The translations under genes and the position numbers were made by a program. Source: Bacillota bacterium (GTDB lineage: Bacteria > Bacillota > UBA4882 > UBA8346). From it: DNA of 64,000 nucleotides. Shown here one piece after another: positions 5,158 through 54,701 of this stretch. The notes under the pieces are model-generated. The model made no database searches. It worked only from the letters and a program-made list of their open reading frames with translations, and was not told the origin of the DNA. The stretch is from the NCBI GenBank assembly GCA_029776205.1, contig JAKOTQ010000003.1:1-64000 (forward strand), written 5' to 3'. Numbering within the stretch: the first letter of the stretch is position 1; the number at the start of each line of letters is the position of its first letter.

Positions 5158-5697
5158 ACATAAATTGACTTTTTCTAGTTTATTTCATAGATTCCTATCT
5201 TTGTATTCCGAAAGTCATTCGACACCTTCGCGGCGATTCCTCTTCCCTCGTTTGTGAGAAAGAACTTGTAATAACTGGGTTAACCGAAAAAAATAAAGCT
5301 TATAAATCCACTTTTATGAGTGAACCAAAAGTTTTATGCAACTGAAAATTGAGAAAGATTTTTAATACATTCGTCGCGCTATTGTTTCAATATGAATCAT
5401 CGATTTTCAAAAACATCGAACATTTTTTGAGCATTGCTTACCTCAAACATTAAAGAGCTCTAGAAACCTTGGATGATTAAGAAGAGGTTCGGAACCTAGG
5501 TTCTGACGGATTTTGGTTACTTTTGACCGGTCAAAAGTGACCCGCCGCCGGAATCTGTAGGCCAGAATAAATAACTAAAGCATATAATAAATCCTGGAAG
5601 AAATATGATATCTCATATTATTACATTTTAAGATTTGAAAGATAGAATGTCGAAATGCTTAAGTATAATCGCCAATAACATACTATTACAGATATAA

Positions 5698-10542: not shown

Positions 10543-11241
10543 ATGAGGAAACTACCGATCGTACTCAGTGTTTCACTGGCTGTAGGTTCCTGTCTGTTCA
10601 TTGCAGATGCTACATACGCGAAACCTGAGCCAAAACCCGAGAAAAAGATCGAACAGCCTAAGAAAAATCCTGGGCCACCGCCACCAAAAGCTCCGGCACC
10701 ACCGCCTAAAAAGGCTCCTGGGCCACCGCCGCCACCGCCACCACCACCACCCAAAAAGGCTCCTGGGCCACCACCGCCACCGCCACCACCACCGCCCAAA
10801 AAGGCTCCTGGGCCACCACCGCCACCGCCACCTCCCGGACCGCCACCACATGTTCGGGAACAGCAAAGACTTCGGGAAGACGCTCGGGTGGTTATCGAAC
10901 GGACTACTTTTGTCCTGCGGGAAGCCCAACATGTAGCCAAACGCTATCATTATACTTCCGGCATGGCTAAAGCCGTTGCCCATCAGCAAAAAGCTCATGA
11001 TCTGTACAGACACGGCAACTATAGAGAAGCGATCTTCCATTCGCTCCGTGCCCGGGATTTGGCCTTCCAGATCATCCGTGGCAATCGTCAGTCTTATCAC
11101 AAAGATTATTACTGGAACGACATGGAAATGAGATATCGCAAGGATTACCCGAAAGATAAAGACCTTGACGTAAGAATCGAACTGCGTTCCCGCAGCGACA
11201 AGGAGATGCTCTTAATCAAATTGATATTTGATTTGGATTAA
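10543..11241 (+). CDS. Secreted protein with proline-rich (P)n-KKAPG repeats
   Basis: RBS ggaggg, signal peptide MRKLPIVLSVSLAVGSCLFIADATYA, poly-proline repeats, C-terminal helical domain. Confidence 0.75.
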   Translation: MRKLPIVLSVSLAVGSCLFIADATYAKPEPKPEKKIEQPKKNPGPPPPKAPAPPPKKAPGPPPPPPPPPPKKAPGPPPPPPPPPPKKAPGPPPPPPPPGPPPHVREQQRLREDARVVIERTTFVLREAQHVAKRYHYTSGMAKAVAHQQKAHDLYRHGNYREAIFHSLRARDLAFQIIRGNRQSYHKDYYWNDMEMRYRKDYPKDKDLDVRIELRSRSDKEMLLIKLIFDLD

Positions 11242-14290: not shown

Positions 14291-14591
14291 TCGGTTTTAC
14301 CATACTTTCCGTTTGAACGGCTCCGGTATTTTTGCCCCGAATATCCGCCATTCCGTGAGCAAACTCTACCGCTGTATGAATGCAATGTCTTGCTTGCAGC
14401 CAGAAAGCGCTCTTCGCCCAAAATCAGGGCATTGCCAGAGGCCCTGAACCCATCTCGGTTGAGGGGGTATCCCGCAAGCCTCCATTATCCGCAGCTATCC
14501 GGGCCACAAGTCCCGCTTCGTTAGAATTGCCATCCGTGATGACTTCCGATTTTATATCTTCTTTTTTATCATTATAAATTAAAATTAAACA

Positions 14592-14942
14592 TGAATGCGT
14601 CACTGAACGTCCACTGCCGCTTTTTTACCGCCAAAAAAACGGCGCAAAAAGGCGCCGGAAACCTAAGGTTTCCGGACCTTCATTTTATTCATCCGGGGTT
14701 CTTGAATGCCTTCGCCATCCCTGGCCTTTCGACTGTCAACATAGACAAGGCTTCCGTTGGCGACCGCAGTTTTTCATCCGTGAAAAGATGCGTCGCAAGG
14801 CTCCATCCCTGGAGCCTTTGATCTGAGATAGATTCAACTACCACACGTAAAAATTGATATCGGAGTGGCCCGCCATGGAGGGCGGGCCCGCGACTTTGAT
14901 TCTGGACGAATCACAGCCGTCGGCATTCAGTATAGGCCCTGA
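14592..14942. repeat. Dispersed non-coding structured repeat, copy 1
   Basis: Near-collinear with 54277..54625; shared hairpins ccggaaacc-taa-ggtttccgg, ggctcc-atccct-ggagcc, ggcccgcc-n6-ggcgggcc. Confidence 0.85.
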
Positions 14943-15312
14943 CCAAAACTCTTTTTACCCGTGTTCAGTTCATCTTCCCGAATATCCACAGCTGCAGCTT
15001 GATCTCCCGAATCATCTTCTTACTCAATGAAATCAGCTCCAACTTATAGGGTAAATCCACCATCTGTTTGAATCCTAATCCGGTACGTTGCCTTCGAAGT
15101 AAACCTATCCCCAATACCCCGGCATGATATCAGGGAATCCCGCAGCACCCGGCCAAAGATTAAAATCTTAACGGAGAATGCTCCAGTCATCGTTTCATTC
15201 GCCACCATCTGTTATTTTCCTGTAAATTCACCTTCAAATTAACATAAATTCCATCTTTGAGGTACTGCCTGGCCGGTTGCAGTAAGAGCAGTACTTAGTT
15301 CACATAGACATG

Positions 15313-46086: not shown

Positions 46087-46119
46087 CGACTATCGTGTAA
46101 CCGAAAATCAACCGGCGGC

Positions 46120-46278
46120 AAGATAGCTCTCCACCCGAAGGTGACAGTACCGGGATTATTCATCTTCGGTACCAGCCGGAGTCTGGCAAACCCCAACTTC
46201 GGCAAAATATCCTTTCATCAGGTTTCAACAGCCCCGCCGGCCTCCGCCTGACTACTCATCTATTTTGCGCCTCTACTC
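46120..46278 (-). ncRNA. Lysine riboswitch (L box)
   Basis: - strand agaggcgcaaaatagatgagtag...gcggaggccggcgggg...gttgaaacctgatgaaagg...tattttgccgaagtt...ctggtacc...ggtactgtcacc...gtggagagctatctt. Confidence 0.9.
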
Positions 46279-46339
46279 TACCCCATCAGAGCCTTTCATA
46301 TACACCATATGAACGCTCTTCAACGTATGAAATTGGATA

Positions 46340-46996: not shown

Positions 46997-48376
46997 ATGG
47001 CAAGACAATGTCCTCCCGGAACGACTGCCTATACAGTGCGTGCCGGTGATACCTTTTATGAACTCGCCCGCCGTTTTAATACAACGGTGGCTGCAATAAT
47101 GGCTGCCAATCCAGGGGTTAACCCTAATCAACTCCAAATTGGTCAAACCATCTGCATCCCGGGGCAACAACCGCCGTCAACCTGTCCGGCCGGTAGTATG
47201 CCTTATGTCATTCGGGCGGGAGATACATTATTTGCATTAGCCCAACGATTTAACACAACGGTCAATGCCATTTTGGCCATTAATCCAGGACTGGATCCCA
47301 ACCGGCTCCAGATCGGGCAGACCATCTGCATCCCGGGGCAACAGCCGCCGTCAACCTGTCCGGCAGGTAGTACGCCTTATGTGATTCGGGCGGGAGATAC
47401 ATTATATGTATTAGCCCAACGATTTAACACCACGGTCAATGCCATCCTGGCCATTAATCCAGGACTGGATCCCAACCGGCTCCAGATCGGGCAGACTATC
47501 TGCATCCCGGGGCAACAGCCGCCGTCAACCTGTCCGGCAGGTAGTACACCTTATGTGATTCGGGCAGGAGATACATTATTTGCATTAGCCCAACGATTTA
47601 ACACCACGGTCAATGCCATCCTGGCCATTAATCCAGGATTGGATCCCAACCGGCTCCAGATCGGGCAGACTATCTGCATCCCGGGGCAACAACCGCCGTC
47701 AACCTGTCCGGCAGGTAGTACACCTTATGTGATTCGGGCAGGAGATACATTATATGTATTAGCCCAACGATTTAACACCACGGTCAATGCCATCCTGGCC
47801 ATTAACCCGGGCCTCGATCCTAACCGGCTCCAGATCGGGCAGACTATCTGCATCCCGGGGCAACAACCGCCGTCAACTTGTCCGGCCAATAGCTTCGCCT
47901 ACGTCATCAAAGCCGGGGACAACTTATATATGCTCGCTTTACGATATGGCACCACAGTCGACGCTATCCTGGCCATTAATCCAGGACTCGATCCTAACCG
48001 GCTGCAAATCGGGCAAACCATCTGTATACCGGGAGTCCCACCCACAACATGCCCGCCTGGCAGCATAACCTATACAATTCAATCCGGAGATACATTGTTC
48101 ACTATTGCCACACGTTATAATGTAACAGTCAACGCCATCCTGGCGGCCAATCCGGGACTGGATCCCAACAATCTCCGGGTTGGGCAAATCATCTGCATCC
48201 CAGGAGGAACTCCCACTTGTCCGCCCAACACCACATCCTATACCGTAAAGGCCGGAGATACCTTCTTCCGTATCGCCAGAGCCCATAATGTATCTCTGGA
48301 TGCATTACTGGCAGCCAACCCCGGTATTGATCCGGACCGTCTCCAAGTCGGCCAGGTGATCTGCATCCCCAATTAA
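46997..48376 (+). CDS. Protein of eight tandem LysM domains
   Basis: Eight Y.V.AGDT..(x)LA.RFN.T...I...NPG..P..LQIGQ.ICIPG modules. Confidence 0.93.
   Translation: MARQCPPGTTAYTVRAGDTFYELARRFNTTVAAIMAANPGVNPNQLQIGQTICIPGQQPPSTCPAGSMPYVIRAGDTLFALAQRFNTTVNAILAINPGLDPNRLQIGQTICIPGQQPPSTCPAGSTPYVIRAGDTLYVLAQRFNTTVNAILAINPGLDPNRLQIGQTICIPGQQPPSTCPAGSTPYVIRAGDTLFALAQRFNTTVNAILAINPGLDPNRLQIGQTICIPGQQPPSTCPAGSTPYVIRAGDTLYVLAQRFNTTVNAILAINPGLDPNRLQIGQTICIPGQQPPSTCPANSFAYVIKAGDNLYMLALRYGTTVDAILAINPGLDPNRLQIGQTICIPGVPPTTCPPGSITYTIQSGDTLFTIATRYNVTVNAILAANPGLDPNNLRVGQIICIPGGTPTCPPNTTSYTVKAGDTFFRIARAHNVSLDALLAANPGIDPDRLQVGQVICIPN
47171..47866 (+). repeat. Four 174-bp near-identical LysM tandem repeats (ABAB)
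   Basis: ccgccgtcaacctgtccggc at 47171, 47345, 47519, 47693 and again at 47867: exact 174-bp spacing. Confidence 0.9.
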
Positions 48377-53939: not shown

Positions 53940-54276
53940 TCTTCCTTCCCTCGTTTTATGAATTGCATTTCCAACCAGGGCTTTATCTTCGGCTCTTTGT
54001 CAAAACTGCCCCTTTTACAGTCTATGTGCCGAAGTCACAATCGTTCCATTAATTCTTTTTCACTTCTGTTCAACGAATTTTTCCTGATAAAGTTTCCAAC
54101 AAAATGCAGCATAAGCTCGAATTTTTAATTATCATTGTTTATTATAGTATTCGGTAGTTGGATTATAACTTTTGAGATAGAATTGGCCATTTCCAGCCAT
54201 TAATTTTTCTTTTCAAGTTTCTGAAAGCTATTTTTGGACTGGACTGATATAAATGCAAAGGTTTTATAGGTAGCCG

Positions 54277-54625
54277 TGAATGCGTTACTGAACACCCACA
54301 GCCGCTTTTTTACCGCCAAAAAAGCGACGCAAAAAGGCGCCGGAAAACCTAAGGTTTCCGGACCTTCCTCTAATTCATCCGGGGTTCTTGAATGTCTTCG
54401 CCATCCATGGCCTTTCGACTGTCAATCAAGCTAAGGCCTTCGACGGCGACCACAGTTTTTCATCCTTCAAAAGATGCGGCGCAGGCTCCATCCCTGGAGC
54501 CTTTGGTCAGCGATAGATTCGCCTATACAAGGAAAAATTGACATAAAAGTGGCCCGCCATGAATGGCGGGCCCGCGTCTTTGATTCCGGATGAATCACTG
54601 CCGTCGGCAGTCAGTATAGCCCTGA
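54277..54625. repeat. Dispersed non-coding structured repeat, copy 2
   Basis: Collinear match to 14592..14942 with the same three hairpins and single-nt indels. Confidence 0.85.
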
Positions 54626-54701
54626 AGCCGCCGCAACGGATACGGCGGCTATAAAAGATCATAAACATACATTCTGTAAAAATTGCACGGTTAGAGCATT
54701 T

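Follow-up and report, generated by a model that had tools for sequence, protein, structure and literature searches.

A modular hairpin-array repeat of an uncultured Bacillota family, probably spread as a non-autonomous mobile element

We find that the segment at positions 14592-14942 of the window (the whole 64,000-nucleotide stretch analysed) is, with a probability of roughly 0.7, a copy of a non-autonomous, modular dispersed DNA element (MITE/BIME-like) of one uncultured Bacillota family, which would have spread in the manner of a transposon. The original prediction had left the choice between a mobile non-coding repeat and a structured RNA family. The mobile part is now well supported, by many copies with unrelated neighbours, by three empty orthologous sites in a sister species, by truncated or internally deleted copies and, in one relative, by terminal inverted repeats and target duplications. 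As for an RNA family, the hairpins covary and their loops are kept. Overall, the element looks like an undescribed selfish repeat.

Copies in the window

The repeat had been described as two near-collinear segments of about 350 bp, at 14592-14942 and 54277-54625, which share a series of short motifs. Both are present as described, and the genome search aligns them at 87% identity over ~351 bp (E ~1e-115), a likeness far beyond chance. The hairpins claimed for the first segment are also confirmed: the folding z-score is -5.3 with DNA parameters on the + strand and -5.1 with RNA parameters on the - strand. The unit length needs correction, since full-length copies elsewhere measure ~600 bp and the pair thus represents part of the element. 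Copy 2 extends to ~54649, its next hairpin GCCGCCGCAACGGATACGGCGGC also being part of the repeat family, and a third, partial copy matches another one at 91% identity over 116 bp. Copy 1 is without most of the right arm, while copy 2 retains slightly more. The features of the window are the following:

14592-14942, + strand: copy 1, left arm and start of the right arm, right end truncated (genome search and copy alignments)
54262-54649, + strand: copy 2, slightly longer at the right end than first described, left end approximate
5449-5585, - strand: copy 3, partial, outer end of the left arm only (covariance-model E = 4e-7)
14618-14642, + strand: outer AT-rich hairpin of the left arm (CGCTTTTTTACCGCCAAAAAAACGG)
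14655-14675, + strand: H1, CCGGAAACCTAAGGTTTCCGG hairpin
14714-14725, + strand: H2, GCC-ATCCCT-GGC hairpin, TCC loop (GGA on the - strand)
14759-14796, + strand: H3, compound hairpin, TCC loop, covarying stems
14799-14816, + strand: H4, GGCTCC-ATCCCT-GGAGCC hairpin, TCC loop, covarying stems
14867-14888, + strand: H5, GGCCCGCC-ATGGAG-GGCGGGCC, right-arm hairpin, opposite loop polarity

We rejected a protein-coding remnant: no reading frame is open through both copies 1 and 2. Elsewhere the window carries a lysine riboswitch (RF00168, E = 1.5e-25) at 46116-46283 on the - strand, an open frame with about seven 174-bp tandem repeats at 46997-48376, likely a repeat protein, and a proline-rich coding repeat of 45-bp units at 10654-10835.

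Copy number and distribution

The window's own assembly (G000; 124 contigs, 99.4% complete) contains 17 matching places, four of them near full length and the rest partial or diverged; about 11 have the core. The proposed BLASTN count favours the mobile repeat and replaces the pair with a larger set. The covariance model R1, made for the core from 27 copies, finds 11 places in this genome, including the partial window copy at 5449-5585 (-). Unrelated genes flank the copies, whose orientation relative to the genes is mixed.

Beyond this assembly, the repeat is present in 10 of the 10 examined genomes of the family, G000 included. Among 100 relatives searched, it was found in all nine other family members and in one genome of a neighbouring family of the class (G017). 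Eight of these nine have between 2 and 31 core copies; in the ninth (G004), the matches are only partial. Across 399 genomes of the phylum, strong matches are confined to the family and G017. A search of genome contigs for the core pattern returned three metagenome-assembled genomes, two labelled Bacillota and one Bacteroides sp. UBA1317. The earlier statement that no known non-coding RNA could be recognised agrees with Rfam, where the repeat has no family match above the gathering threshold, and no description of the repeat was found in the open-access literature searched. A phage or plasmid origin was considered and set aside: phage and plasmid records gave no repeat matches, nor did viral contigs match two core patterns.

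In one genus (for example G003 contig C192, L098 6464-8942, and other loci), the repeat alternates in tandem with small genes at a 771-bp spacing; these genes, of ~100 aa, belong to or lie near DUF6809 (PF20648). Integron-like cassettes were rejected as an explanation, the 771-bp spacing in G003 being a tandem of the small DUF6809-like gene plus the repeat, with unrelated neighbours elsewhere. A c-di-AMP riboswitch (RF00379, E = 5.5e-23) was also noted on G000 contig C81 (L104 6382-6516, -).

Anatomy of the element

Full-length copies consist of two inverted hairpin arms; those on G000 contigs C58 and C81, for example, align over ~612 bp at 83.5%. The left arm runs from the outer AT-rich hairpin through the CCGG hairpin H1 and a conserved ACCTCC stretch to H2, H3 and H4, for which the family forms are GCC-ATCCNT-GGC, GGCGA-CGCA-TTTTC-ATCCNT-GAAAA-TGCG-TCGC and GGCTCC-ATCCCT-GGAGCC, respectively. 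The right half repeats this order inverted: hairpins with reversed loop polarity (GGCCCGCC-ATGGAT-GGCGGGCC and GGGC-ATGGAT-GCCC) are followed by a CCGG hairpin and an outer hairpin. The copy on contig C35 has both ends without the core, and in the copy on C22 the left end is fused to the right part; both are internal deletion derivatives. Within one genus, a single core carries two alternative left modules, and the swapping of whole modules may explain part of the variation among stems.

Upstream of seven G000 copies lies a GTCGACAGGAGGCGC-like motif. A short GTCGACAGGAGGCGCTGTTCG-like motif, which may indicate where the G000 element truly begins on the left, is found upstream of most diverged G000 copies and once or twice elsewhere. 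Its G000 sites are:

L104: 2065 (-), 5204 (-)
L111: 6774 (-)
L112: 6702 (-)
L113: 6029 (+)
L103: 6108 (+), 8767 (+)
L186: 3396 (-)

Covarying stems and constant loops

Given no structure, RNAalifold recovers three hairpins, and 13 of their 17 pairs have double-sided changes. In a separate count, 94.5% of cells pair. The covariation score is 0.315, compared to 0.122 +/- 0.012 in shuffles (0 of 500 reach it) and 0.04-0.11 in a register-slid control, which is the safer one because the 27 sequences share ancestry and shuffling overstates significance. Together with the 17 matching places, this strong stem covariation takes the repeat well away from a pair of copies lacking covariation, the outcome under which the original prediction would have been abandoned.

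While the stems vary, 193 of 201 hairpins have a loop that reads TCC on the + strand and GGA on the - strand, the count covering 67 copies that have both hairpin sides; in G000, 24 of 24 loops counted have GGA on the - strand. Covariation supports selection that would act on both the hairpin fold and the TCC/GGA loops, and the presence of the same three letters in nearly all loops may indicate a binding protein. The wobble pairs favour the - strand (27 versus 14 column-by-genus events, p = 0.06), which is suggestive only.

Empty sites in a sister species

We tested three syntenic sites in the sister species (G001), and the repeat is missing from each of them. With the neighbouring genes conserved, the mscL-amidase gap measures 1024 bp in G000 and 64 bp in G001, the gap between the CBS gene and asnS 730 bp and 213 bp, and the site on contig C105 839 bp and 69 bp. 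The simplest reading of these empty sites would be insertion in the G000 lineage; loss in G001 rather than gain in G000 could also account for them. The orthologous G001 site also lacks the DNA flanking copy 1 (window 14300-14590 and 14943-15300), which means that the gain or loss between mscL and the amidase involved more than the repeat. The window's copies have no readable terminal inverted repeat or target duplication, and for copy 2 in particular no target duplication can be read.

An IS4-type partner in a relative

Such ends are present in one relative (G006), where we aligned eleven convergent arm pairs. Several of them are bounded by CTCAACTTTCGCAGA...TCTGCGAAAGTTGAG, 15-bp inverted repeats, and five copies have target duplications of 6-7 bp (TAAAAT, TTATGAT, AAGTCAA, TTAGTA and TTATTTC). 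The inverted repeat CTCAACTTTCGCAGA occurs 31 times in G006 compared to 0 in the control. G006 contig C73 starts within an IS4-family transposase frame (NF049925, E = 3e-136), incomplete for that reason, and the inverted repeat follows ~0.14 kb downstream. Complete relatives in plasmids of Alicyclobacillus fastidiosus share these ends and are flanked by 7-bp duplications, TTTAAAA and TTCCTAA. From the shared inverted repeats, the target duplications, the transposase frame and the Alicyclobacillus relatives, we infer that the G006 arm pair is carried by a miniature IS4-type element.

The window's genome differs in this respect. No NF049925 (IS4-type) transposase was found in G000 or G001, and IS4-type ends, which we considered as borders of the window's copies, were looked for there and not found. 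As IS4-type and Y1 transposases are both absent from G000 and these ends do not border the window's copies, the arms may be a module captured by different transposons.

Two further observations concern IS ends. A reverse-transcriptase-like open frame, identified by eye, adjoins one IS4-type inverted repeat on G006 contig C7 (L241 1-1151) and is possibly a group II intron inside the element. In G002, four identical IS ends with a related inverted repeat, ATCAACTTTCGCAGG, each lie at a contig end (L223, L229, L234 and L242), a pattern to be expected where a multi-copy IS interrupts the assembly; the 44-residue C-terminal fragment at this element end gave no usable match for classification.

Possible mechanism and alternative explanations

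We propose that four to five hairpins form an arm, the unit of the element. Arms are found singly or in convergent (inverted) pairs; a tandem arrangement with a small gene is seen in one genus as well. Where an arm pair sits between IS4-type ends, the IS transposase would be expected to move it in trans, leaving duplications of 6-7 bp. The ends and duplications in G006 can be read in its sequence, and the enzyme presumably acts on them. In the window's genome, a lost or unrecognised transposase, or recombination, may be responsible. The loops may be read by a protein, either on RNA or on single-stranded DNA.

The general features of a MITE are present, namely a non-coding, multi-copy repeat with presence/absence variation at orthologous sites. 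Counting against this reading, strong covariation and invariant loops exceed what a plain MITE needs. One alternative is a CsrA sponge: the - strand would be a CsrB/RsmZ-like small RNA, present in many copies, whose GGA loops (C-A(N)GGAN-G) sequester CsrA-type proteins. RsmZ-2 has an AAGGAU hexaloop that fits the consensus ANGGAN (PMC3791407), and so do many loops of the repeat. The constancy of GGA over covarying stems and the lean of the wobble pairs point the same way, csrA is present in 8 of the 10 family members examined (G002-G009) as well as in G017, and one terminator-like hairpin lies on the - strand (14657-14640). Yet neither genome of the window's genus (G000 and G001) has csrA, and the G000 loops counted have nonetheless all kept GGA; if the gene was lost before the split between these two, it did not shape the younger G000 copies. 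Moreover, the first A of the consensus is missing from most H3 loops, and the opposite polarity of the right-arm hairpins means that no single transcript has all the sites. Because csrA is missing from the window's genus, promoter signals do not exceed expectation and other copies have exchanged the module that carries the terminator-like hairpin, we regard the sponge as unlikely and prefer the mobile element, with hairpins that are nonetheless maintained. A combination of the two, in which the arms, as RNA or single-stranded DNA, would bind a protein through an invariant GGA loop code and, spread by mobility, would seed multi-site sponges for a CsrA-like or other GGA-binding protein, is rather unlikely as well.

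Two other explanations are far less probable. REP/BIME-type palindromes moved by a RAYT (Y1) transposase acting on single-stranded hairpins would account for the inverted pairs of hairpin arrays, which resemble REP-family dimers (PMC3733652). We rejected a RAYT-driven REP: Y1 transposase is absent from several carriers (G000, G001, G005 and G017), the alignments reveal no terminal GTAG/CGTC tag, conservation is in the loop and not the foot, and in G006 the element ends in inverted repeats of the DDE type, flanked by target duplications. We hold it equally improbable that the copies are immobile cis-regulatory or terminator elements conserved at particular genes. In both G017 and G006, copies do lie near alaS and near a helicase gene, and the region has five terminator-like sites versus 1.2 expected, two of these being the upstream gene's own terminator. 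Against this, the neighbouring genes differ between species, the three syntenic sites are empty and the copies face both ways relative to genes.

Comparison with known repeats

Having considered these alternatives, we compared the proposed mobile element with described systems. It resembles QMITE2 of Coxiella burnetii in being short, non-coding, intergenic, multi-copy and rich in stem-loops and, in G006, in its terminal inverted repeats, target duplications and identifiable IS partner. Unlike QMITE2, it has a conserved interior array of hairpins whose stems covary and whose loops are fixed, it is common to genera whose copies differ in their ends, and the window's copies have no readable terminal repeats. 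With REP/BIME and their RAYT it shares palindromic units, inverted pairs, intergenic location and varied stems. Palindromes of 20-40 nt with a GTAG or CGTC tag at their foot define that class (PMC3733652), whereas our units span ~170-200 nt with several hairpins, carry no tag, conserve the loop and occur in several genomes lacking RAYT. With neither a RAYT nor a foot tag, the repeat falls outside REP/BIME proper. Classification as a MITE finds support in G006 and in the way the family behaves generally; since the partner IS is missing from the window's genome, the repeat is a variant of the MITE/BIME kind and not, as a whole, an IS4-type MITE family.

CsrB/RsmZ-type RNAs that sequester CsrA likewise have serial hairpins with ANGGA-type loops on one strand, but our repeat is dispersed in many copies and two polarities, and the window's genus has no csrA. 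The element adds a large modular hairpin array to the known bacterial dispersed repeats, with no such description found for this uncultured Bacillota family. Its tie in G006 to an identifiable IS4-type transposase makes mobilisation testable, and the constant loops on covarying stems raise the question of which factor reads them, on RNA or DNA.

Finally, one type of left module repeats its purine arm (CTTTTTG..CAAAAAG..CAAAAAG), a layout that resembles intrastrand triplex motifs (Holder et al. 2015, PMC4666352) and could possibly form such a triplex, although it departs from the published G/C-rich pattern and concerns one exchangeable module of the element only.
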